A stretch of DNA of 60,222 bases from Planctomycetota bacterium (GTDB lineage: Bacteria > Planctomycetota > Phycisphaerae > Phycisphaerales > Phycisphaeraceae), in assembly GCA_021413865.1 (NCBI GenBank), contig JAIOPN010000044.1:1-60222 (forward strand). Reading direction: 5' to 3'. Shown piece by piece: positions 49,595 to 60,222 of the stretch (its first letter is position 1; every line of letters starts with the position of its first letter). The translations under genes and the position numbers were made by a program. Under the pieces are notes generated by a model. It saw nothing but the letters and a program-made list of their open reading frames with translations, searched no databases and was not told the DNA's origin.

Positions 49595-50854
49595 TCACGC
49601 CTCGTCCAGCATTACACAATACGCCTCTGTGGTGGTCGTGGGTGCGCAGCCCACGCCCGGAACGCCGTGGGTGTAGAGGATGGTCGGACGCTCGACGGGG
49701 TGGAAGACGCCGGGGCGGGTGACGTTGGGGAGCCAGTTCGCGCTCGCGGGGTCGGGCGTGCTCACCTGTTTGCAGTGCCAGGATTTCCCCGCATCCGCGG
49801 AGCAGAGGTGGAAGACCTCGCAGGAGGGGTGGCCCCACGCGGTCTCGAGTGACAGGCCCGCGACCTGGCTCATCGGTTGGGTGGTGCAGACAACGTGGAT
49901 GCGGTCGCGCGTGTCGATCATCATCGTCGTATCGACGGCGACCAGTCCGGCGGGCAGGCTTGTCGAGACGTCGGTCGTCTCCCATTTCGCACCGCTCCAG
50001 CGCGAGAGCCATATTTCACGCGACTCGGGCGACGGCTGGTTGGTCAGCGCCCAGAGCGAGCCCCGGGAATCCACCGCCAGCCCGCACATATAAACGTACC
50101 GCCCGAACGGCGGCACGGCGAAGCGGTCGTCATACAGCGCCGGCGTCACGACGGCGCGGCCGGCCATGTCGGTCCACGTCAGGCCGCGATCGGTGGAGCG
50201 CACCACCGTCACGCCGTACGACAGCCCCTCGACAGGCTTGAGGTGCGTACCGGAGTTGTAGAAGTGGGCGCCGTAATAGAGCGTGCCGTCGCCGCCGCAG
50301 ATGAGCGTCGAGCCGGTGTGTGTGTACTGCGGCGGGATGTTCTGATGGAAGATGGCTTTGGCCGTGGTCCACGCACCGTCGGCCTTCTGGAGCTGGAACA
50401 TGGCGGGCATGGGCTCCTCGCCGCCGCGGTAGCCGATGGCGTCGCAGTCCCACGGGGTGTGGGTGACGCTGGCGTAGGTGGCGTCGTAGCCGAAGTCCTG
50501 CGCATTTTCCCAGGCGTCGATGGAGTTGGGCTGGGTCGCGCGCTGGTGTTTGAAGCGGGACTGGTTCCAGTTGGTGTCCCAGCAGTGCGGACCGTAGGTG
50601 ACGCGGAGGTGGCGGTCACGGCCGAGGGTGAAGGCGGGCGAGGTGTGGTTGTCGCTGCCCGTACCGACATGCTGGGTTGGGCCCCAGGTCTTGGTGGCGT
50701 GGTCGTAGGTGCGGGCGCGGACCTCGGCGATCGCGTCGAGCCAGCAGACGTGCGTCTTGCCGTCAAGCGTGATGCTCTTGTTGCTGAAGGCGTAGGAGGT
50801 CGCGCGGGTCGAGCCGGCGTCGCTGAGGCGGAACGGGGCGGAGTAACGGAACAT
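49595..50854 (-). CDS. BNR-repeat beta-propeller protein
   Basis: The 419-residue product carries repeated Asp-box/BNR-like blades: ACGG-type turns as in STLICGGDGTLYYGAHFYNSGT, VVRSTDRGLTWTDMAG (a full BNR S-x-D-x-G-x-x-W) and LCSADAGKSWHCKQV. A BNR-4-type layout with GPHCWDTNWNQSRF resembles planctomycete and Bacteroidota sialidase- or ulvan-lyase-related proteins. No signal peptide is seen. Catalytic residues cannot be assigned. It is divergent from the heparinase-like gene across about 60 bases, so both may serve one polysaccharide. Confidence 0.75.
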   Translation of the reverse strand: MFRYSAPFRLSDAGSTRATSYAFSNKSITLDGKTHVCWLDAIAEVRARTYDHATKTWGPTQHVGTGSDNHTSPAFTLGRDRHLRVTYGPHCWDTNWNQSRFKHQRATQPNSIDAWENAQDFGYDATYASVTHTPWDCDAIGYRGGEEPMPAMFQLQKADGAWTTAKAIFHQNIPPQYTHTGSTLICGGDGTLYYGAHFYNSGTHLKPVEGLSYGVTVVRSTDRGLTWTDMAGRAVVTPALYDDRFAVPPFGRYVYMCGLAVDSRGSLWALTNQPSPESREIWLSRWSGAKWETTDVSTSLPAGLVAVDTTMMIDTRDRIHVVCTTQPMSQVAGLSLETAWGHPSCEVFHLCSADAGKSWHCKQVSTPDPASANWLPNVTRPGVFHPVERPTILYTHGVPGVGCAPTTTTEAYCVMLDEA

Positions 50855-50915
50855 GGGTCTACCCTCGGGAAATGTGGCCTAACAGGGTACCATGCCCGCC
50901 ACGAAGGAGACCACC

Positions 50916-52787
50916 ATGACCGCCACCGTCACAACCATCGAAACGCCGGGCGTCGTCACGGGCACAAGCCCGCTCGAACACGAATTGATCGGCGTACACC
51001 CACGGCTGCATCTGCGCGGCGACTGGTGGGCGGCGACGCGCGCCAAGCTCGCTGAGCCGCAGTGGGCGAGCCTCTGGGCGCGCCTCAAACACGTCGCCGA
51101 CCAGAACGTCCCGCAGAACGCCCCCGCGAAATACAACAGCGACCGCGGCCTGGGCTCACGGCTGCCGATCCTGGCGATGGCGTACAAACTCGGCGGCGAC
51201 CCGCGCCACCTCGAAACCATCCGCAAGCAGATCGCCGTCCAGTGCCCTCAGCCCAAGTGGGACACCGGCCTGGGCGGCGGGCACATGCTCTACGGCTTCG
51301 CGATGGTGTACGACTGGCTCTTCGACGACCTGAGCGCAGAGGAGCGCGCCGCCGTCCGCGACGCGTTGCACCGGCAAGGCAAGGCGATGTACGACTCGCT
51401 GAACGACCCGGGCGCGTGGAAGACCACGGTTTACACCTGCAACCATTTCCCCGTCATGCTCGCGGGATTGGCCGCGGCCGGCGGGGCGCTCTACGGCGAG
51501 GTCGCGGGTGTCGCGGCGTGGCTGCGGCTGAGCGCGGAAAAAGCGAGGCTCGCCACGCAGGCGCTGGGCCCCGACGGCGCGTCGCAGGAAGGCCTGGGCT
51601 ACGGGCAGTATTACCTGGAGTTCTACCTCGCCCTGCTCGACATGCTGCGCGGGATGGTCGGCGTGGACCTCTTCCTCGACAACGAGTTCCTCCGCAACGC
51701 GTCGCGGTTCCACATTTATTCCACGCAGCCGCGCGACACATGGACCGAGCCGGCGTGGCTCATCTGCCTGGGCGACGGCGTGCGCTACTCGTGGTATGGC
51801 CCGGACAACATGCTGCGTCTCCTCGCGGCGGAATACCGCGACGGCGCGGCGCAGTGGTTCGCCAACGAGACGCATAATTCCGGCGTGACGCGCGACACCG
51901 CCACGCATCAATCCCTGCTCTGGTACGACCCGACCGTTCCCCCCATCCCCCCTTCCGCGCTGCCGACGCTGCACCACTTCAAGGACCAGGACCTGGTGCT
52001 CGGCCGGTCCGGCTGGCACGGGCGCGAGAACGTTTACGCCTTCAAGTGCGGGCCGAACGCCGGCCACCACGCGCTGCGCCACTACAACCACGACATCGGC
52101 GGCGGGCACATGCACCCGGATGCCGGGCACCTGGTGATCTTCGCGCACGGCGACGTCCTGCTCGCCGAGGACGGCTACTCCTTCAAGACCACCGCGTTTC
52201 ACAACACGGTTTTGGTCAACGGCATCGGGCAGACCGGCGAGGGGCACGCGTGGTTCGAGGACACGGAGCTGCGCCGGCAGAAGCGCGGGCCGCGGATTAT
52301 CAGCGTGGAGCACACGCCGGCGATGGACGACATCCTCGCCGACGTCGGGCCGGCGTATGAACTGAGCGCGGGGCTGACGCGGTTCACGCGCCGCGTGCGA
52401 TTCCTCAAGCCGTCCACATGGATCGTGGTCGATGAACTGGAGACGCGTGAGCCGGCGACATTCGAGGTCTATTGGCACTCGGACTTTCCGTTCACCTCCG
52501 ACGGCGACGGGAGCTTCACCGTGCGCGGGACCCGTGGGGCGATGCGCGTGACCACACTCTCCCCCGCCGGGGTGAAGACGCGCACTTTTCAACAGGCGGT
52601 CAACCATCCCGATGGCCCCCTGACCGCGATGAAAGAGGTGCTGACATTCTCCAACGCACAGCCGGCGAAGGCGGTGCGGTTTGTGACCGTGCTGGAGACG
52701 CGCGCCGCGTCGGACGCGGCGGGACCGGCGGTGCGCATGAGCGACGCGAAGACGGTGCGTGTCAACGGGGTGGATGTGGCGGTGTGA
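50916..52787 (+). CDS. Heparinase II/III family polysaccharide lyase-like protein
   Basis: I chose the ATG at 50916 because AAGGAG lies six bases upstream. The 623-residue product has an N-terminal (alpha/alpha)-barrel part (PRLHLRGDWWAATRAKL; AYKLGGDPRHLETIRKQIA; YGFAMVYDWLFDDLSAEER) and a C-terminal beta-sandwich (HYNHDIGGGHMHPDAGHLVIFAHGD, DGYSFKTTAFHNTVLVNGIGQ). HNTVLVNG and the DAGHLVIF region are typical of the heparinase II/III C-terminal domain. No signal peptide is visible at this start. Acts on uronic-acid polysaccharides if active; the particular substrate is unknown. Confidence 0.85.
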   Translation: MTATVTTIETPGVVTGTSPLEHELIGVHPRLHLRGDWWAATRAKLAEPQWASLWARLKHVADQNVPQNAPAKYNSDRGLGSRLPILAMAYKLGGDPRHLETIRKQIAVQCPQPKWDTGLGGGHMLYGFAMVYDWLFDDLSAEERAAVRDALHRQGKAMYDSLNDPGAWKTTVYTCNHFPVMLAGLAAAGGALYGEVAGVAAWLRLSAEKARLATQALGPDGASQEGLGYGQYYLEFYLALLDMLRGMVGVDLFLDNEFLRNASRFHIYSTQPRDTWTEPAWLICLGDGVRYSWYGPDNMLRLLAAEYRDGAAQWFANETHNSGVTRDTATHQSLLWYDPTVPPIPPSALPTLHHFKDQDLVLGRSGWHGRENVYAFKCGPNAGHHALRHYNHDIGGGHMHPDAGHLVIFAHGDVLLAEDGYSFKTTAFHNTVLVNGIGQTGEGHAWFEDTELRRQKRGPRIISVEHTPAMDDILADVGPAYELSAGLTRFTRRVRFLKPSTWIVVDELETREPATFEVYWHSDFPFTSDGDGSFTVRGTRGAMRVTTLSPAGVKTRTFQQAVNHPDGPLTAMKEVLTFSNAQPAKAVRFVTVLETRAASDAAGPAVRMSDAKTVRVNGVDVAV

Positions 52788-52800
52788 TGTGTTCCGGCGC

Positions 52801-52836
52801 AAAAAAAACCGGGTCCTCGGAAAACCGAGGACCCGG
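52801..52836 (-). terminator. Strong terminator of the FeeM-like gene
   Basis: Perfect 12-bp stem CCGGGTCCTCGG / CCGAGGACCCGG with an AAAA loop, flanked on the plus-strand 5' side by eight A residues that become a U-tract for minus-strand transcription. It lies 36 bases past the stop of the gene at 52872. It may also help end the converging heparinase-like transcript. Confidence 0.85.
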
Positions 52837-52871
52837 CGTAGGGGGTCTGTTTTATTGCCGCGGCGTGATCG

Positions 52872-53828
52872 TCACGCCACCGCGGCGCTCCACGAGGAAC
52901 CGCCCAGGAGAACCTGGTGGTACACCTGCAGGCCCCAGCGCTGCTGGATGGCGTCCTGCACGGCCTGGCTGCAGCGGGTGAGCATGCCGCTCTGGGAGAC
53001 GAAGAGCTCGCGGAGCAGGGCCGGGTCGCGGAAGCGCATCGAGGCGATGCGGCTGGAGAGTTTGGTGTAGCCGAAGTGCGGGTTGGAGTGCAGGAACCAG
53101 TCGCACAGGAAGGCATCGTCGCCAAGAGCGTCGTCGGTCTCCTTGATGCGCGCCGGGCCCTGCTCTAGGTTGAGTCGTTTGCCCTCGACGACGTCGTGGG
53201 TGGCCTTGTCGTAGCAGCGCTCGTCGCCCCAGGACTCGAAGGAGAGCAGGTGCTCAAAGAACGCGCAGTGACCGGGGCTGATGGAGACGAAGAAGTCAGT
53301 CAACCCGATGTTGACTGCGTGGGCGTAGGCGCAGCGCGTCAGCTCGAGGAACACGGCGGAGTTGCGGTACTCGTCGGTGACCACCAGGTTGGTGATCTCA
53401 CCCACGCGACGGTTCTGAGAGCGGAGGGCCTCTAGCTCCTTGCTGAAGACTTTGTCCGAGGGCAGGCCGATGTCCTGCGAGTCGGGAACGACGCTCATGA
53501 CGGCGACCACGCGGCCATCGACCTTAGCGACGAAGGTCGCCATCTCGGGCAGGGCCTCGAACTCACGGACCCGCACGCCGCCGGGCTGGGGCTGGATGTA
53601 ATTCTTCTGAACGAAGACGTCGTGGACAAGCCGGTAGGCCTGGGTCAGGTCGTTAAGACTGATGGCTTGGAAAATGCGGATGTCACCGCTGGCGGTGAGC
53701 AGGCCGGCCTGTTTGAAGCGTGCGACGCGGCGGCGGATCTTGCCCGCCTGACGCTCATCATAGACGGGTGTAACTGCAACCTGAACGGCCTCACTCACGG
53801 TGCTCTGCATGGTTCCGGCTGAGATCAT
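52872..53828 (-). CDS. FeeM-like N-acyltransferase (GNAT fold)
   Basis: The 318-residue product starts at 53828, where AGGAG lies eight bases upstream; the frame open to 54182 is not supported. Residues 50-200 show the FeeM/N-acyl amino acid synthase pattern: FQAISLNDLTQAYRLVHDVFVQKNYIQP, AKVDGRVVAVMSVVPDS, GEITNLVVTDEYRNSAVFLEL and DFFVSISPGHCAFFEHLL. FeeM-type enzymes join an acyl-ACP or acyl-CoA to an amino acid amine. The region 200-318 is an extra conserved block (DVVEGKRLNLEQG). Context: divergent from an adenylate-forming enzyme that could supply the acyl group. No N-terminal signal; cytosolic. Function inferred from fold and partner. Confidence 0.75.
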   Translation of the reverse strand: MISAGTMQSTVSEAVQVAVTPVYDERQAGKIRRRVARFKQAGLLTASGDIRIFQAISLNDLTQAYRLVHDVFVQKNYIQPQPGGVRVREFEALPEMATFVAKVDGRVVAVMSVVPDSQDIGLPSDKVFSKELEALRSQNRRVGEITNLVVTDEYRNSAVFLELTRCAYAHAVNIGLTDFFVSISPGHCAFFEHLLSFESWGDERCYDKATHDVVEGKRLNLEQGPARIKETDDALGDDAFLCDWFLHSNPHFGYTKLSSRIASMRFRDPALLRELFVSQSGMLTRCSQAVQDAIQQRWGLQVYHQVLLGGSSWSAAVA

Positions 53829-54169
53829 TCGTCTGGCTCCTCGTTGAGACCGCAGACCCCTGGGTCGTTTGGCCCGAACACCACAACCATGCAAAATGTC
53901 AGCAATGAAAGCCAAGTACAATCTCCACCAATCTCCGACCAGATTTTTCAGTTGCGGTTTGTAGCGGTGGGGTAAGCGTCTCGCGTGGGCTCCAGGCGTT
54001 GTTCCCGCGGGTTGCCGCCAGGTCCGTGGGTATCGGATCCGGTGCGGATCAAACGCGGCGGGTTTTTCTCGGACGTGCCACACTTTAGCCAAGTTCACGG
54101 TTTTGTTCAACAGGAATTCCACTATCCGCGCGATATTTAGCCGAAAGCCAATCGCAGGAGCGCATTCCC
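53829..54169. promoter_or_regulatory. Divergent promoter region, FeeM-like and ligase genes
   Basis: The 341-base spacer between two divergent genes holds no credible frame. The stretch 54080-54130 is AT-richer (TTTAGCCAAGTTCACGGTTTTGTT on either strand) and is the likeliest promoter zone; I could not fix -35/-10 elements. The GTGGGGTAAGCGTCTCGCG near 53969 is a degraded relative of the family E repeat. Confidence 0.4.
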
Positions 54170-55603
54170 ATGGGCAAGTCACCTCGTACGTCCTCTGGTT
54201 ATCGAACAGCAGTGCGTTCAGAGGCCAAGAATTCCGCCATTCTTCTGGCTGAGACCCCTCCCGGCATGATCGCTGCCGCCTCCGAACAGGCTGCGTTGCT
54301 GGCCTTTACGCAGGCCTCCGAGCGTGTCCCCGCGTACCGAAAGATCCTCGCAGCCAAAGGAATTGATGTCGGTAACGTAGTTTCAATCCGGGACTTCGAG
54401 AACAAGGTCCCGCTGCTCAACAAAGCCCTGCTGTTCGGCTCGTACGACTTGCCGTCGCTGTGCGTCAATGGATCGCTCGAAGACGCCGCCGCCGTTTACA
54501 CCAGCTCCGGGTTCTCCAGCACCTTCTCTTGGGGCGTCGAGACCGCCAGCGACGAGGAAAAGCTACGGTTCGGCCTCGACTTGCTTCTTGAGACCTATTT
54601 CTCCGCCACAGAGCACCGCACCCTGCTGATCAACGCCCTGCCCATGGGTGTGAAGGTGCCGGCCCGACTGCCCATCGTGCTGGACACCGGCCCGCGGGCG
54701 GATTCCTGCCTGGCGGCCGTGAAGACGATCGGGCCCCATGTGGACCAGATCCTCCTCGTGGGTGAGCACCCGTTCCTCAAAAAACTCGCAGAAGATGGGG
54801 CCACGGATCCCGCGGTGAACTGGCCGTCGAGGCGTGTTTTCGTCATCACCGGGGGGGAGTGGATCGCATGCGGCTACCCGGCTTACCTCGGGAAGCTCCT
54901 GGGCCAGGACCCGGACAACCACATCAAGCTCAGTCTGGGCGTTTCCGAGATCGGGCTAAACGTCGGCATCGAGACGCCCGATGCACGGCACATCCGCCGT
55001 TTGCTCCATGCCGACCCCGCGCTCTCCCACGCGTTGCTGGGCGACGCCCCGTTCACCCCCGTTGTCACGCAGTACATGCCGGACCGCTTGTTCATCGAGT
55101 CTCCCGAGATCGGTGGCGTCCCACGCCTAGTGGTGACGACGCTCGACCTGGAGCGACGGCTGCCGCTGGTGCGCTACTGCACCGAAGACTGGGCGCGGGT
55201 GATCCCGTTCGTCGAGATGTGCGAGACGCTCACGAAAATGGGCCACGGCGACAAGCTGCCCCGCACCCCCCTGCCATTCATCGCGATGTTCGGCCGGGGC
55301 AAGTCGCTTGCGGTCGGCGAGGCGCGCATCTATCCCGAGCAGATCAAGGAACTCTTCTACGCAGACCCCAATCTTGCCGGTGCGATCACCGGCGACTTCC
55401 GAATGGAAGCGTCGGACGGCCAACTGCGGCTACGCGTCCAACTGCGACGGGAGGCCGAGTCGAACACGGCTACGGCGGGAAAACTCGAATCCGCGATCGT
55501 TTCATCGCTGCACATCCCCGCCCGCGTGACGAGCGTGCCCTACGCCGGCTTTGTCGAGGGGCTGGACGTGGGATACCAGCGGAAGTTCCGCTACCTGCCG
55601 TAA
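54170..55603 (+). CDS. PaaK-like adenylate-forming ligase (acyl activation)
   Basis: The 477-residue product resembles phenylacetate-CoA ligase-type enzymes. VPAYRKIL (53-60) is the family opening, SSGFSS (112-117) stands where the SSGTTG ATP loop should be, and GVSEIGLNVG, VRYCTEDWARVIPF and FGRGKSLAVGEARIYPEQIKELF follow in the usual order. The end GYQRKFRYL may supply the late lysine. The phosphate loop is altered, so activity is uncertain. It may load an acyl acid onto CoA for the divergent FeeM-like enzyme. It ends 11 bases before the stop of the converging cyclase gene. Confidence 0.75.
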   Translation: MGKSPRTSSGYRTAVRSEAKNSAILLAETPPGMIAAASEQAALLAFTQASERVPAYRKILAAKGIDVGNVVSIRDFENKVPLLNKALLFGSYDLPSLCVNGSLEDAAAVYTSSGFSSTFSWGVETASDEEKLRFGLDLLLETYFSATEHRTLLINALPMGVKVPARLPIVLDTGPRADSCLAAVKTIGPHVDQILLVGEHPFLKKLAEDGATDPAVNWPSRRVFVITGGEWIACGYPAYLGKLLGQDPDNHIKLSLGVSEIGLNVGIETPDARHIRRLLHADPALSHALLGDAPFTPVVTQYMPDRLFIESPEIGGVPRLVVTTLDLERRLPLVRYCTEDWARVIPFVEMCETLTKMGHGDKLPRTPLPFIAMFGRGKSLAVGEARIYPEQIKELFYADPNLAGAITGDFRMEASDGQLRLRVQLRREAESNTATAGKLESAIVSSLHIPARVTSVPYAGFVEGLDVGYQRKFRYLP

Positions 55604-55614
55604 GCGGGGCGGTC

Positions 55615-57249
55615 TTACTTGTCTTCGAGGATGATTTCTCCCGCGAAATCCGCGGGGGGGAGCCCGTTGATATAGGCCGTGCTCCTGTTTCTGTAGATTG
55701 ACGTGAGCATGGAGGAGCCGAACTCGGATTCGATTTTGGGGATCACGACGAGACATTCGGCAAACTTCATCTCCTGGAACTTACCGACCAGTTCCGCGGC
55801 CATCTCGCAGCGCCGGTTGAGGTCCTCCGTAGCCTGGGCGATCTCGCACAGAGGCTCATAGACCATGACGCCGATGGTTTTTCCGTACAAGCGGAGCCGA
55901 CCGATGGGGCAGAGCAGGAATTCCGACCCGACAAGCTCCGCGGTGCGGTCGCTGACGAGAACGCGCGTGCCGAAGTGCTTATTGGCTGACTCTAAACGCG
56001 ACGCCATGTTGACGCGGTCGCCGATCACGGTGTAGTCACTCGCATCCTCGGGGCCGGCGTCACCCACGACGACGGCGCCCGTTGAAACCCCGGCGCGCAT
56101 GGAGACGGGCGTGAGGAACCGCTGCTTGAGCTTGCGATTAAACTCCTCCATTTTCTTTTGCATCTGGAGCGCCGATCGCACCGCATCGGTGTGGTGGTGC
56201 GGGTTGTCAACCGGTGCACCGTAAAAGCACATGATGCCATCGCCCATGAATCGCCCTACGCAGCCGCGGTTGGTCCGTATCACGGGGACCATGAGGCGCC
56301 GGAAGGAACTGACGATCTCGACGATGCCTTCGCCCAGGCTTTCAGTAAGTCTTGTAAATCCCGAGAGGTCGGTGAACAGGATCGACATCTCGCGGGTCTG
56401 GCCATCGAACCGCGTCTGATCGGGGTGTTCGAGAACGTAATAGACGAGCGCGGGATCGACGTAGCTCTGGAAGCGGCGGCGCAGGGCTTCCTGCTCCTGC
56501 TGCGCCCGACGGTACTCCTCACCCAGACCGATGCCCAGAACGAGCATCGCCATGGTGAACAACGCGGGGCTCGTGGCAGGCCCGGTGAAATTTGCGGCCC
56601 CCATGACAATGTCAACGATGCCCCCCAAAGCGAATATCGCCAGACCCAGGCGGATGACCCCCGCCGGGAGCAGACCGCGCGAGCGGCGAGCGCCCGGCTG
56701 GCTCTGCATCCATAACAGGGTCTGGAGATAGATATGGGTCGCCGTCCAGACGATCCCGAATACGACGGCGACCGCCATCGCGTCCGGGGCCCACGGGACT
56801 TGTGAGTCCCAACTGCTGGTCGGCGCGGCGGGCGTTGCACGCGGAGAGATGAGCCCGGGAAGAAAGAAATTCAGCGTCAGGGGGATGCCCAGAAGATACA
56901 ACATAACGATCCGCCGCCTGAGCCACGCGTGGGCGTGCGAATACAGGAGAACAAAGTGTCCCGTAAAAAACAGCATCCACAATGCGTTGATGTATGCGGC
57001 CCTGATGTACCACACGGCGTAGCGCGCGTGTTCCGGGTGCGCGGCGGGGTCGCTGCCGGCGGGGGTCAGGTTGTCGAAGAAAAACATCAGCACGCAGTGG
57101 ATGACGATCGGGACCGTCGTCAGGGTGAATAACAGATCGACGCGCCTGCGCGTCACCCGCAGGTATCGGTGAAAGAACACGAGGCAGGCGGTTGCCGAGA
57201 TGACAACTGACACCAGATCAATGATTGAGAACGCGTTTATGGAAATCAC
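55615..57249 (-). CDS. Membrane class III adenylate/guanylate cyclase
   Basis: The 544-residue protein has seven predicted TM helices in residues 8-245 (for example DLVSVVISATACLVFFH, INALWMLFFTGHFVLLY, IVMLYLLGIPLTLNFFLPG and AIFALGGIVDIVMGAANF), then a helical linker and a cyclase domain from about 285. Metal ligands are D294 (FTDLSGFT) and D337 (GRFMGDGIMCFYG); YTVIGDRVNMASRLES follows. The sensor is a multi-helix membrane domain of no recognised family, unlike the Cache-type cyclase at 11930-14128. Its C-terminal 80 residues extend past the catalytic core. Converges on the ligase gene. Confidence 0.9.
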   Translation of the reverse strand: MISINAFSIIDLVSVVISATACLVFFHRYLRVTRRRVDLLFTLTTVPIVIHCVLMFFFDNLTPAGSDPAAHPEHARYAVWYIRAAYINALWMLFFTGHFVLLYSHAHAWLRRRIVMLYLLGIPLTLNFFLPGLISPRATPAAPTSSWDSQVPWAPDAMAVAVVFGIVWTATHIYLQTLLWMQSQPGARRSRGLLPAGVIRLGLAIFALGGIVDIVMGAANFTGPATSPALFTMAMLVLGIGLGEEYRRAQQEQEALRRRFQSYVDPALVYYVLEHPDQTRFDGQTREMSILFTDLSGFTRLTESLGEGIVEIVSSFRRLMVPVIRTNRGCVGRFMGDGIMCFYGAPVDNPHHHTDAVRSALQMQKKMEEFNRKLKQRFLTPVSMRAGVSTGAVVVGDAGPEDASDYTVIGDRVNMASRLESANKHFGTRVLVSDRTAELVGSEFLLCPIGRLRLYGKTIGVMVYEPLCEIAQATEDLNRRCEMAAELVGKFQEMKFAECLVVIPKIESEFGSSMLTSIYRNRSTAYINGLPPADFAGEIILEDK

Positions 57250-57363
57250 GGCGAATGCCTCTATGCCGTCCCGCCGGCGATGGGACGTGAAATACAGCAG
57301 ATATCGTGCGGCTCACGCGCCAGGTCCGCGAATCGGCGGGGATTCAGCGGAGAGGCCCGACCA

Positions 57364-58419
57364 TCAGAAGGCGATGCTCAGCGAGACCGTGAAGGTCTGC
57401 GCCGGGCCGAATTCCGAGCGGATCTCGGGGAACATGTTGTACTGGTAGGCGAAGTCGAGGCTGACGCGGTCGCCCAGAGAGACGCCGAAGCCGGTGGTGC
57501 CGGAGACCGTGCCCTCGGTGTCGATCACCACACCGCCGCGGAGGAAAAGGATTTTCTCGATCAGGGCGTGGTCCACACCCGCGCCGAAGCGGTGGACCCA
57601 GAGGGTGCCCGTGTCGTTGAAGAAGACGCCGCCCTGGTAATCAAAATAGAAGTCGCAGCCCTTGGCGTACTCCCACGCGATGCCGGGGCGCAGGAGGAAC
57701 TGGTGGGTGGTGTCGTTGATGTGCTGCGTGCCGATGCCCAGGCCGAAGATGTCACGGATTTCCGTGCGGGAGGGGGCGAAGGCGTAATCAAACACGACGC
57801 CGGTCCGGACCTTCTCGAACGTCTGGTGGACGGCGCCGAGGCGGAACCCGTAGGTCTCGCTGTTGGTCCGCGCCAGTTCGGTGTCGGAAATGTCAAACTT
57901 GGTTTGGGAAGAGGTGAAGTTGAAATTGGCGCCGATGGCCAGGTCAGGGGAGATCATCTTGCCCCACTGGATCTGACCGTAGTCGGCATCGAACCCGAAC
58001 TGGGTGCCGGTGCTGTCGTCCTCCTCGTTGCTGCGGATCTGGGCGGCGGCAGGGAGAAAGACGCCCCAATCACCGGCGTCGAGGGTCACCGCCTCGCTAA
58101 CGACGTACAGGTCCGTGCCCTCCTGGAAGGTGATGGCTGTGAACTGCGGCGCAAAACCGTTTTTGAATTGTTTGTCCTGCGGCCACGCGGCGGAAGCGGG
58201 GTTGACAGAGCTGGACCATTCGCTGGCCGCCTGGGCGTTGCCACCCGCGGCGACGTCGGCGTACGAGGAAAAGCGGCTGATCGCGGCGGGAAAGCGGAGC
58301 GTAAAGTCGTGCCCGCCAAAGTCCTCTGCCGGCGCGGATGCGACGATGGCGATCGTGAGGAATACCGCGCACCAAGACAAAAGTTTCGCTCGCGTGATCG
58401 GCGACGTGTGTGATTTCAT
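57364..58419 (-). CDS. Outer-membrane beta-barrel protein, FadL/PorV-like
   Basis: The 351-residue product starts at 58419 with a signal peptide (LLSWCAVFLTIAIVASAPA). The mature chain is made of alternating amphipathic strands (GANFNFTSSQTKFDI; TGVVFDYAFAPSRTEI; DFAYQYNMF) and ends with Phe (VSLSIAF), a usual outer-membrane barrel signal. SSSVNPASAAW near the start resembles the N-terminal NPA motif of FadL/TodX-type fatty acid channels. Export of acyl products from the neighbouring genes is one possibility. The FadL link is inference. Confidence 0.7.
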   Translation of the reverse strand: MKSHTSPITRAKLLSWCAVFLTIAIVASAPAEDFGGHDFTLRFPAAISRFSSYADVAAGGNAQAASEWSSSVNPASAAWPQDKQFKNGFAPQFTAITFQEGTDLYVVSEAVTLDAGDWGVFLPAAAQIRSNEEDDSTGTQFGFDADYGQIQWGKMISPDLAIGANFNFTSSQTKFDISDTELARTNSETYGFRLGAVHQTFEKVRTGVVFDYAFAPSRTEIRDIFGLGIGTQHINDTTHQFLLRPGIAWEYAKGCDFYFDYQGGVFFNDTGTLWVHRFGAGVDHALIEKILFLRGGVVIDTEGTVSGTTGFGVSLGDRVSLDFAYQYNMFPEIRSEFGPAQTFTVSLSIAF

Positions 58420-58560
58420 TGGCAGGACCCCGAAACAACCATGGTTTCCACGCCACATGGCGAGGAGCGTTGAATGGCTCGCTGCTTATAGCACATCGGT
58501 TCGAGCGGCTCAAGCATTCTTGCACGGGGCCGCTCTTGAGCGAATGGGGGATTAAATAGG

Positions 58561-58588
58561 AAGGGCCGTCTCTTGCGAGACGGCCCTT
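58561..58588 (-). terminator. Terminator of the PEP-CTERM gene
   Basis: A perfect 12-bp stem (AAGGGCCGTCTC / GAGACGGCCCTT) with loop TTGC lies 30 bases past the stop of the PEP-CTERM gene. The following minus-strand bases CCTATTTAATC are A/T-rich but lack a pure U-run. Confidence 0.75.
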
Positions 58589-58617
58589 TCGTTGTTGAAC
58601 AAGTCAGTCGAAGGGAC

Positions 58618-59646
58618 TCAGGCCTTGCGGCGACGGGTCGCCGAGAGGGCCAGGGCACCCAAGGCCATCAGGCCGGAAGCGGCGGTGATGGGCTCGGGAA
58701 CGGGGGAGACCAACTTCACGCGAACGGGGTCGTTGCTGCGAACGAGCCAGTCGGTGTTGGGGACAACGTTGGGGAAGGTCTCGAAGGTCACATAGGCATC
58801 AGCGGGCTTGTAGTTGAGACCAGCGGCGATGTTAGCGGCGTAGGCCGGGTCGAAGCCCAGGACACCGGCAGAGCCATCGAACACGTTGCTGTCAACCGCA
58901 GCGCCCCAGAGGCCGCCAGTCGACTCGAGGTAAGCCACGCCGTTGCCCTTGTTCTCGCTCGGACGGAAGGTGCTGAGGAACTCGGCGTCAGCGCCACCGG
59001 CAGCGGTGGTGATGTTGATGTGCCCACCGATGGAAACCATACGCAGGAGCAACTCGCCGTCGGTGACGGTGGTGTACTTATCGACCGCAGTACGGCCAGC
59101 GCTACCGGCCAGAATGCTGAAAGGATCGGTGGTGGTGGGGCTGAGGTAAACTTCCAGAACCATGCCGGCGCCGTTAACCACCTGGAAGTCGGTGGTCTTG
59201 TCGAGATAGTAGTCCTGAATGCTGTGGAACATGACGGTCATCTCGTAGCTCGTACCGCCGTGGGTTTCGCCATCGGTATAAAGCTTGTTGATCGCAGAGT
59301 CCTCGATGGAGGTAACTTTGGCGATACCCCAGCCGTCCTCAGTGGCGGGAATCGCACCGGTGGCCGCCTGCTGAAGAAGGCCGTTCAGCGTAGTTGTACC
59401 GCTGGCAACCTTGGGGTCCGCAGACGTGGAGCCGAAACCGCCATAAATCGCATGCTCACCAGGAGTGCTGCTGTTGAGTGTCTCGCTGTAGACCGAACCC
59501 ATGTCAACGTTGGCATACTTGAACTCGACGAAGCCGATGCCTGTGTAGAGCTTGTTCAAGATTTCGTCAGAGGCCGTGGACGCCATGGCGAACGACGGCA
59601 GAACGGCCACGCCGCTCAGCGCCAGAACTGAAAGAAACTTCTTCAT
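58618..59646 (-). CDS. PEP-CTERM sorting-domain secreted protein
   Basis: The 342-residue product has a signal peptide (FLSVLALSGVAVLPSFAMA) and a C-terminal sorting tail: VPEP, a hydrophobic helix (ITAASGLMALGALALSA) and the basic end TRRRKA. This is the PEP-CTERM signal handled by an exosortase, which is not encoded in this window. AGGAGATAAGG just precedes the ATG. The central region is a beta-rich, Ser/Thr/Ala/Gly-rich domain with no other family match. It should be anchored or released at the cell surface. Confidence 0.88.
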   Translation of the reverse strand: MKKFLSVLALSGVAVLPSFAMASTASDEILNKLYTGIGFVEFKYANVDMGSVYSETLNSSTPGEHAIYGGFGSTSADPKVASGTTTLNGLLQQAATGAIPATEDGWGIAKVTSIEDSAINKLYTDGETHGGTSYEMTVMFHSIQDYYLDKTTDFQVVNGAGMVLEVYLSPTTTDPFSILAGSAGRTAVDKYTTVTDGELLLRMVSIGGHINITTAAGGADAEFLSTFRPSENKGNGVAYLESTGGLWGAAVDSNVFDGSAGVLGFDPAYAANIAAGLNYKPADAYVTFETFPNVVPNTDWLVRSNDPVRVKLVSPVPEPITAASGLMALGALALSATRRRKA

Positions 59647-60222
59647 ACCTTATCTCCTGCTTCCTGGGTCCACACCCCAAACTCTTTTCCCAACGCGTGG
59701 ACCTGCACGGTGGGAACTTGTTCCGCAAGGCAAGCACGAGCTTGCCCACATGAATTCAGACGCAACTTGGCTGACGACTCTTCCTCCTCCGAGGAGATGC
59801 CGCCCCCATTACATGACAGCCCTAAGATAACGGCCTCCCACCACTGATGCAAGTCCTATATTCACGATTTTTTCGTGACTTTTACTCTTCAACGAATTTT
59901 TCTATCTCTTGTGTTTACCTATGTCCCCAGACCATCTGAGCTTCTCAAAATTACCCATATCCCCATGCGGTTTCATGCCTATGCGGATCGCTCACCCGCA
60001 GCGTTCGCTATCAAAAGGTGGCTTGCTCTGCGATGGAGACGGAATCGACTCGTCAGGCGACACTGAACTCTTTGTGAATACACTAGAGCATCCCCAACGC
60101 ATGCGTAGCGCGTACGGCGCATGTTCGGTATTGCGCTCTTGAGGTTGCCGCGTTAGATTCGCTCCACGCCCGGGTTTGAACGGGTGATGGAGCCAGGGAT
60201 GGGCGCATCGTATTCGCAGGAC
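59647..60222. other. No gene recognised
   Basis: The leading part is the upstream region of the PEP-CTERM gene. From about 59850 to 59960 it is AT-rich, with a TCACGA/TCGTGA hairpin around a T-run at 59862-59878. After that no frame has convincing composition. A short palindrome-like segment near 60100-60123 (ATGCGTAGCGCGTACGGCGCAT) is the only other structure I see. Confidence 0.5.

Follow-up and report, generated by a model that had tools for sequence, protein, structure and literature searches.

A FeeM-like acyltransferase and a PaaK-like adenylate-forming ligase stand back to back on contig JAIOPN010000044.1 of a Planctomycetota bacterium (assembly GCA_021413865.1), and the question raised by this arrangement is whether the two enzymes work together, with which of their neighbors, and on what product. 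The whole contig, 60,222 nucleotides, is the window analyzed here; it is contig C9 of a 4.37-Mb assembly in 67 contigs (genome G000). A sequence-only reading of positions 52872 to 59646 had joined five genes into one system: the acyltransferase (here FeeM1), the ligase, a membrane cyclase, an outer membrane barrel, and a PEP-CTERM protein. Each of the five genes has an open frame at the position given for it. Our own reading, which we hold at about even odds, is that the locus encodes part of a small module that makes an N-acylated amino compound and that the product acts with a PEP-CTERM matrix. Its evidence comes largely from three other genomes that carry the pair, namely, G045, G057, and G428, and from the 18 to 20 kb around each copy (loci L043, L044, and L078, respectively).

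FeeM1 (52872..53828, minus strand, 318 aa) was identified as an FeeM-type N-acyl amino acid synthase (NAS) by Pfam, by a structure-profile match, by alignment with FeeM, and by its place in the tree. It scored 130 bits against the Pfam FeeM model (cutoff, 27 bits; E value, 8.6e-38), and the FeeM1 proteins of G045, G057, and G428 likewise exceeded that cutoff. The plain GNAT models PF13444 and PF00583 were matched at E values of 0.005 and 0.009, both below their cutoffs; the enzyme is thus FeeM-like, as first proposed, and not a plain acetyltransferase. A profile of the FeeM1 family found a single match in the PDB at an E value of ≤1, and this was FeeM itself (2g0b; E value, 1.3e-5). Glu144 of FeeM1 was aligned with the Glu at counted index 96 of chain 2g0b_A, which we take, assuming an offset of one, to be the active-site residue Glu95 of FeeM. 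Glu was invariant at this position across six FeeM1 and FeeM2 rows. Exchange of Glu103 abolishes the activity of Nas354, and the Glu of FeeM is termed active site (PMC4897644). The open frame of FeeM1 extends upstream to a GTG at 54182, but the ATG at 53828, with GAGGAG 8 nt upstream, is the likelier start.

The ligase (54170..55603, plus strand, 477 aa), whose ATG is preceded by AGGAG at 9 nt, is a divergent enzyme that standard annotation passes over. The window protein had no Pfam match at an E value of ≤1, and none of eight relatives scored above a cutoff; only that of G057 touched a model, AMP-binding_C_2, at 13.4 bits (cutoff, 25 bits). Against TIGR02155 the single sequence gave a weak match (E value, 1.9e-6), and phenylacetate-coenzyme A (CoA) ligase proper, PaaK, was rejected as its identity, as its 26.7 bits compare with an NCBIfam equivalog cutoff of 646.3. 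The family profile (A1) matched PaaK structures far more strongly (2y4o, E value of 5.1e-18; 4r1l, E value of 1.5e-17) and also LuxE (E value, 1.2e-5); its matches at an E value of ≤0.01 were PaaK, LuxE, 2-hydroxyisobutyryl-CoA synthetase, and AjiA1/PaaK-like ligases. A structural model built from a four-row alignment reached a middling mean predicted local distance difference test (pLDDT) score of 62.8 and aligned best with PaaK1 (2y4n_B; Z score of 15.7 and root mean square deviation of 8.8 over 360 residues). Foldseek matched the model to PaaK1 at an E value of 5.2e-16, with a template modeling score (TM-score) of 0.39 in the best row. An SSG P-loop, SE, RYxxxD, GR, and a C-terminal Lys, the motifs of the adenylate-forming superfamily, were all present in the window ligase and its three orthologues; in some remoter family members the Glu of the SE motif was replaced by Asp. 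Profile, motifs, and modeled fold agree that the ligase is a predicted PaaK-like adenylate-forming (ANL) enzyme, a member of a family overlooked by standard annotation. Several of the nearest solved ligases are aryl-acid enzymes by title (PaaK1, NatL2, and ClxA), and 2-hydroxyisobutyryl-CoA ligase is also near.

Relatives of the ligase occur in other settings as well. On another contig of the window's genome (C36; L046:8030-10643), a ligase paralogue and an Acg/Rv3131-type nitroreductase are encoded together in an operon-like arrangement, and the same pair, with overlapping frames, was seen in G446 (L079:7009-9490). In G293, a genome 80% complete and without an FeeM match, a ligase gene cut by the contig end is followed by ThiF and nitroreductase genes (L053:1-3085). 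In G387 (L051:5102-13415), one strand carries genes for a PEP-CTERM homologue, a B12-binding radical SAM enzyme, the ligase, an amidohydrolase, ThiF, and a beta-eliminating lyase; here a relative of the window ligase is surrounded by another pathway.

The two enzymes were then followed across genomes. Profile searches covered 400 genomes of the order, taken as one draw for both proteins on the basis of equal genome and genus counts; the best three or fewer candidates per genome were scored for the ligase and the best five or fewer for FeeM1, so weaker extra copies may escape. The FeeM1 and ligase clades co-occurred in exactly the same 4 of the 400 genomes, the window's own among them. FeeM1 scored 550 to 594 bits in the four carriers and at most 63 bits elsewhere, and the ligase scored 729 (G045), 723 (G057), 661 (G000), and 480 (G428) bits, with other genomes at no more than 307; because the FeeM1 profile (A4) was made from all four carriers and the ligase profile from three, this gap arises partly by construction. 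Searches with the single sequences agreed with the profile results. The chance of such co-occurrence is 1e-7, with the window's genome excluded and kinship ignored.

Gene order and trees pointed the same way. FeeM1 and the ligase are adjacent in all four carriers, and in G045, G057, and G428 they lie on one strand in the operon order FeeM2-FeeM1-ligase, with FeeM1-ligase gaps of 40, 54, and 67 bp. In the FeeM1 tree the carriers formed one clade (support, 100/100) on a long branch away from 32 other FeeM rows, and in the ligase tree they again formed one clade (100/99), apart from the G000 paralogue; branching was equal in both trees, with G000 first, then G428, then G045 with G057. This comparison of sequences shows that FeeM1 and the ligase are inherited together as a unit. 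When 61 genomes were searched (60 relatives plus that of the window), a ligase match was found in three (G000, G045, and G057), each with a close FeeM1 homologue beside it, and a contig scan with one peptide pattern matched 38 stretches, 3 of which encode a relative. In a draw of 392 genomes of the phylum, again taken as common to both single-sequence searches, the ligase matched in 6 genomes and FeeM1 in 24 at 1e-10; only G000 and G045 were in both lists, and the third-best FeeM1 genome reached 103 bits. The expectation that homologues of the two genes are usually found together therefore holds for the orthologous clade and fails for FeeM generally, since only 2 of the 24 phylum genomes with an FeeM1 hit also match the ligase.

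A second synthase, FeeM2, missing from the gene set first proposed, accompanies the pair. Each carrier genome has two genes above the Pfam FeeM cutoff (in G000 one further match, at 20.8 bits, falls short of the cutoff of 27). FeeM2 lies beside FeeM1 in G045, G057, and G428; in G000 it is unlinked, on C62, next to phosphoenolpyruvate carboxykinase and FHA genes. The FeeM2 proteins of the four carriers did not form one clade in a tree in which 17 of 33 inner forks remained open and the bootstrap had not settled; the tree thus gave no support for a common origin. Directly ahead of FeeM2, G045 (L043:11788-12954) and G057 (L044:12801-13970) have a gene of 388 to 389 aa, 70% identical between them, that matches Pfam Aminotran_1_2; the G045 copy is BioF-like by NCBIfam (435 bits; cutoff, 426). 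It was rejected as a core partner because L078 and the window lack a homologue, and it is at most accessory: it may serve plain biotin synthesis or supply the pathway as an alpha-oxoamine synthase. On the ligase strand of G057, an alpha/beta-hydrolase gene (430 bp off) and an extracytoplasmic function (ECF) sigma factor gene follow 3' of the ligase (L044:6923-8515). Tandem arrays of two or three FeeM genes also occur in relatives that lack a close relative of the ligase (L109:8275-11416 in G004, L016 in G041, L026 in G018, and L115 in G022). In L110:6347-9310 (G027) and L115:1392-5643 (G022), FeeM adjoins a TrzS/PRK14851-type fusion of ThiF and nitroreductase, so that these two close relatives have trz-like oxazolone clusters; TrzS is Rv1355c (PMC12856293).

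The PEP-CTERM surface protein (58618..59646, minus strand, 342 aa) has a signal-peptide-like start and a tail of VPEP, a hydrophobic stretch, and RRR; its PF07589 score, 20.6 bits, falls just below the cutoff of 20.7. Its gene lies 3.0 kb from the ligase, and a terminator-like hairpin at its 3' side (58561..58588, minus strand, 12 bp) suggests that it is transcribed alone. Of 211 genomes of the order, 3 (G000, G057, and G428) contained the family at 1e-6, all of them carriers of the pair; the chance of this overlap is 1.4e-4, with the window's genome excluded and kinship ignored. The sole family match of G428 (E value, ≤0.001) lies 178 bp from the ligase, and in G387, from another part of the phylum, the sole match at that threshold lies 2.8 kb from the ligase homologue. 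On these counts and distances, the proposed tie between the PEP-CTERM protein and the enzymes was borne out. The similarity persisted when signal and tail were trimmed, and among 35 distinct PEP-CTERM-tailed frames, drawn from FeeM, ligase, or PEP-family loci and not from whole genomes, only these relatives matched the window protein at an E value of ≤10. G000 has a second family match, to the tail only (query residues 314 to 342).

Exosortase was found in all five genomes examined; in G000 it is encoded on C47 and C5, contigs other than the window's. With a PEP-CTERM protein at the locus and an exosortase in the genome, the window fits the description of PEP-CTERM/exosortase-linked NAS genes. 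Two other FeeM genes have a neighbor with a PEP-CTERM tail of the VPLP or IPIP type, at 111 bp in L119:6602-8727 (G432) and at 480 bp in L122:2264-4512 (G010). In G428 the PEP-CTERM gene is followed by an exopolysaccharide-like stretch with genes for UDP-sugar dehydrogenase, glycosyltransferase, and heparinase (L078:12251-16697).

These results suggest how the module might work. By comparison of genomes, the pair is one unit, a second FeeM is present in 4 of 4 carriers, and the PEP-CTERM family is present in 3 of 4; from this we infer the joint pathway of ligase, FeeM enzymes, and PEP-CTERM protein, the order of its steps, and its surface role. The ligase would convert ATP and a carboxylic acid to an acyl-AMP, which would be handed on as a thioester; FeeM1, along with FeeM2, would transfer the acyl group to the amino group of an amino acid or amine; and the amphiphilic product would reach the cell surface and act there with a PEP-CTERM matrix protein that is sorted by exosortase and belongs to one rare family. 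A dedicated ligase suggests that the acid is not supplied in activated form by primary metabolism and may be, for instance, an aryl acid or an uncommon fatty acid; the second FeeM might add another acylation step or take part in a relay. A surface role is proposed because such synthases are known to be linked to PEP-CTERM sorting and exopolysaccharide. In published systems, adenylate-forming enzymes load the carrier protein that supplies FeeM with acyl groups (PMC6331615), and TyzA uses acyl-CoA (PMC10404671).

Several observations weigh against this reading. An FeeM-type synthase can live on Escherichia coli acyl-acyl carrier protein (PMC4897644), which makes a dedicated ligase generally unneeded. 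No FeeM match was found in six genomes with other ligase-family members (G131, G148, G293, G446, G467, and G685), and the ligase family as a whole is therefore not bound to FeeM chemistry. The ligase paralogue of G000, itself a row of the profile, scored 531 bits, above the 480 bits of G428, a true clade member, so membership in the clade rests on tree and BLAST and not on profile score. Three of the four carriers belong to one family (f6), which leaves only about two independent lineages; in further f6 genomes of the draws, e.g., G041 and G432, the only FeeM genes are different ones. The PaaK-like fold of the ligase was recovered, although with low TM-scores (0.32 to 0.43 by query length over 28 best rows), and the FeeM1 model, from a two-row alignment, was too poor for use (mean pLDDT, 42). 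G045, searched singly, had no homologue of the family, and the three matches in G057 all lie far from the pair; two of them (C1:4557836-4559380; L090 and L092) fall within one frame of 7503 aa that likely encodes a giant surface protein. A general enrichment of PEP-CTERM proteins near FeeM was rejected, with 8 of 105 genes within 2.5 kb and 17 of 211 beyond (P = 0.63) at 21 of 22 loci, L120 being left out because no FeeM frame had been picked there. The link is to one PEP-CTERM family and not to such tails generally.

The remaining genes of the original set appear to be bystanders. Between the ligase and the PEP-CTERM gene lie a class III adenylate/guanylate cyclase (55615..57249, minus strand; PF00211 E value, 2.4e-19) and an outer membrane beta-barrel of the DUF481/OMP_b-brl type (57364..58458, minus strand). 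Single-sequence profiles of either protein gave no match among the genes selected in L043, L044, and L078, the barrel being searched at these loci only. At 1e-40 the cyclase matched in 23 of 51 genomes of the family, but apart from the window's own, no match began before query residue 153, and the matched frames were 652 to 1052 aa long. Both were rejected as system parts on these grounds and, judged by such comparisons, are probably neighbors outside the system. The suggestions that the cyclase exerts control and that the barrel is an exit route were not supported. The barrel had been called FadL/PorV-like, which was not confirmed: it matched DUF481 (25 bits; cutoff, 21.1) and, below the cutoff, OMP_b-brl (24 bits; cutoff, 28.7), no FadL or PorV model in Pfam was matched at an E value of ≤1, and nothing in the PDB matched better than an E value of 0.0047.

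In the window, the starts of FeeM1 and the ligase point apart across 341 bp (53829..54169), which by its coordinates is the presumed promoter region of both. A promoter scan limited to the sigma-70 consensus gave no match there or anywhere in positions 50800 to 60222. G+C content drops to 0.59 across this intergenic region; otherwise, composition does not change sharply around the pair. On the other side of FeeM1, a strong terminator-like hairpin 3' of the gene (52808..52837, minus strand; 13 bp, 4-base loop, T-run) separates it from a convergent gene for a heparinase II/III-like protein with DUF4962 (50892-52787, plus strand), past which lie BNR and phytanoyl-CoA dioxygenase genes.

Other schemes were weighed. 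In the first, which we consider rather unlikely, the ligase acts after FeeM on the N-acyl amino acid, whose carboxyl group it activates for oxazolone cyclization or for coupling to a second amine. Tryptazolone synthesis involves ATP-driven cyclization of an N-acyl amino acid (PMC12856293), and TyzB does likewise for tyrazolones (PMC12479983). Ligase-family members do stand beside enzymes of the oxazolone type (nitroreductase in G000 C36 and G446, ThiF with nitroreductase in G293, and ThiF in G387), in line with possible activation of an N-acyl amino acid by the ligase. However, purpose-built ThiF and nitroreductase profiles found neither by the pair in the selected genes of the window, L043, L044, and L078, and the paralogues of G000 C36 and G446 belong to a clade separate from the pair ligases in the tree. 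A related scheme, quite improbable in our estimate, is a relay free of nonribosomal peptide synthetases, in which FeeM2 would make the N-acyl amino acid, the ligase would activate its carboxyl group, and the strongly diverged FeeM1 would couple it to a second amine, giving lipodipeptide-like products matched to the one PEP-CTERM family. FeeM1 would then be a synthase that accepts an N-acyl-aminoacyl donor; we know of no other FeeM-family synthase for such a donor.

It is very unlikely that the ligase itself forms the amide, like the GH3-like ligase OlsH, which makes N-acyl ornithine in the planctomycete Singulisphaera acidiphila (PMC12493201), with FeeM1 acylating something else or the same lipid again. 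Amide bond synthetases of the superfamily were among the lower fold matches of the ligase (Z score, 8.7), yet the ligase profile matched no GH3 or amide synthetase at an E value of ≤0.01, and Pfam gave no GH3 model at an E value of ≤1 for nine ligases, OlsH itself not being directly compared. The alpha/beta-hydrolase gene 430 bp behind the G057 ligase recalls OlsI, the OlsH partner of that fold class (PMC12493201), but it is present at only one of the four pair loci. We give as little weight to an acyl- or aryl-amide signal, resembling a LuxI-type quorum signal, with the cyclase for control. The divergent arrangement of FeeM1 and ligase was counted in favor of a signal, and both FeeM and acyl-homoserine lactone synthase are near structural neighbors of the FeeM relative TyzA (PMC10404671). 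No LuxR-type regulator was seen among eight window proteins or the selected genes scanned at the relatives' loci, and the cyclase was not seen with the pair elsewhere; in G057 the ECF sigma factor gene stands two genes behind the ligase (L044:6923-7480). Last, five chance neighbors with separate jobs are hardly credible as a whole: within the tests made, the description fits the cyclase and the barrel, and a terminator-like hairpin separates the PEP-CTERM gene from the barrel, but chance is very unlikely for FeeM1 and ligase, which share the same 4 of 400 genomes and are adjacent in each. It is also unlikely for the PEP-CTERM family, whose 3 genomes among 211 are all carriers.

The module for an N-acylated amino compound can be set beside known systems. 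Natural-product PaaK-like ligases AjiA1, NatL2, and ClxA share the fold of the window ligase (Z scores of 15.1, 15.0, and 11.9) at 14 to 19% identity, and to our knowledge they are not paired with FeeM. Planctomycete clusters with several FeeM synthases have been published (PMC12479983 and PMC7293339), and from Phycisphaerae one N-acyl amino acid synthase was noted in Mucisphaera (PMC8882080). NAS genes adjacent to PEP-CTERM/exosortase sorting genes were reported by Craig, Cherry, and Brady (2011, J Bacteriol; via PMC7293339 and PMC4897644), and the synthases of S. maiorica are likewise associated with PEP-CTERM sorting and exopolysaccharide, a link left for future study (PMC7293339). In the titles, abstract openings, and passages of the papers that our searches found, no pair of FeeM or NAS with a PaaK-like or other adenylating ligase was described, nor was one under N-acyl amino acids with Phycisphaerae or PEP-CTERM or under exosortase with adenylate-forming enzymes. 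The claim that no described system has this exact set thus seems to hold for the ligase partner and not for the FeeM/PEP-CTERM linkage: FeeM synthase clusters are known, and their pairing with this ligase seems undescribed.

The locus offers a compact, rare case in which a synthase clade, a ligase family without a Pfam model, and a second synthase come with a PEP-CTERM family seen nowhere else among 211 genomes of the order. It is a handle on an adenylate-forming family that standard annotation overlooks. The carrier ZRK34, whose FeeM1 is 50% and whose ligase is 42% identical to the window proteins, has a complete genome under a strain name, and the link between synthase and PEP-CTERM protein is testable genetically.

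The FeeM-type synthase is the hallmark shared with the Stieleria stieleriacine/nasY clusters (PMC7293339 and PMC12479983) and the tyz/trz clusters of Mycobacterium tuberculosis (PMC10404671 and PMC12856293). Those clusters carry a ThiF-like cyclase and a nitroreductase, whereas here a PaaK-like ligase was found instead and neither enzyme was found near the pair; membership in the stieleriacine/tyz pathway was rejected for want of either among the genes picked around the four copies. The S. maiorica cluster resembles the window set in its several synthases and in the PEP-CTERM gene Mal15_37300 inside it, and the word "ligase" is absent from the main text on that cluster (PMC7293339). With the fee cluster the theme of FeeM fed by adenylate-forming enzymes is shared; there feeding goes through a carrier protein (PMC6331615), and the ligase of the present locus differs in being of the PaaK type. 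The combination of an FeeM-type synthase with PEP-CTERM/exosortase sorting is that of the NAS genes of Craig et al.; unlike those, as they are described in citing papers, the link here is to one PEP-CTERM family, the exosortases of G000 lie on other contigs, and the ligase is always with FeeM1.

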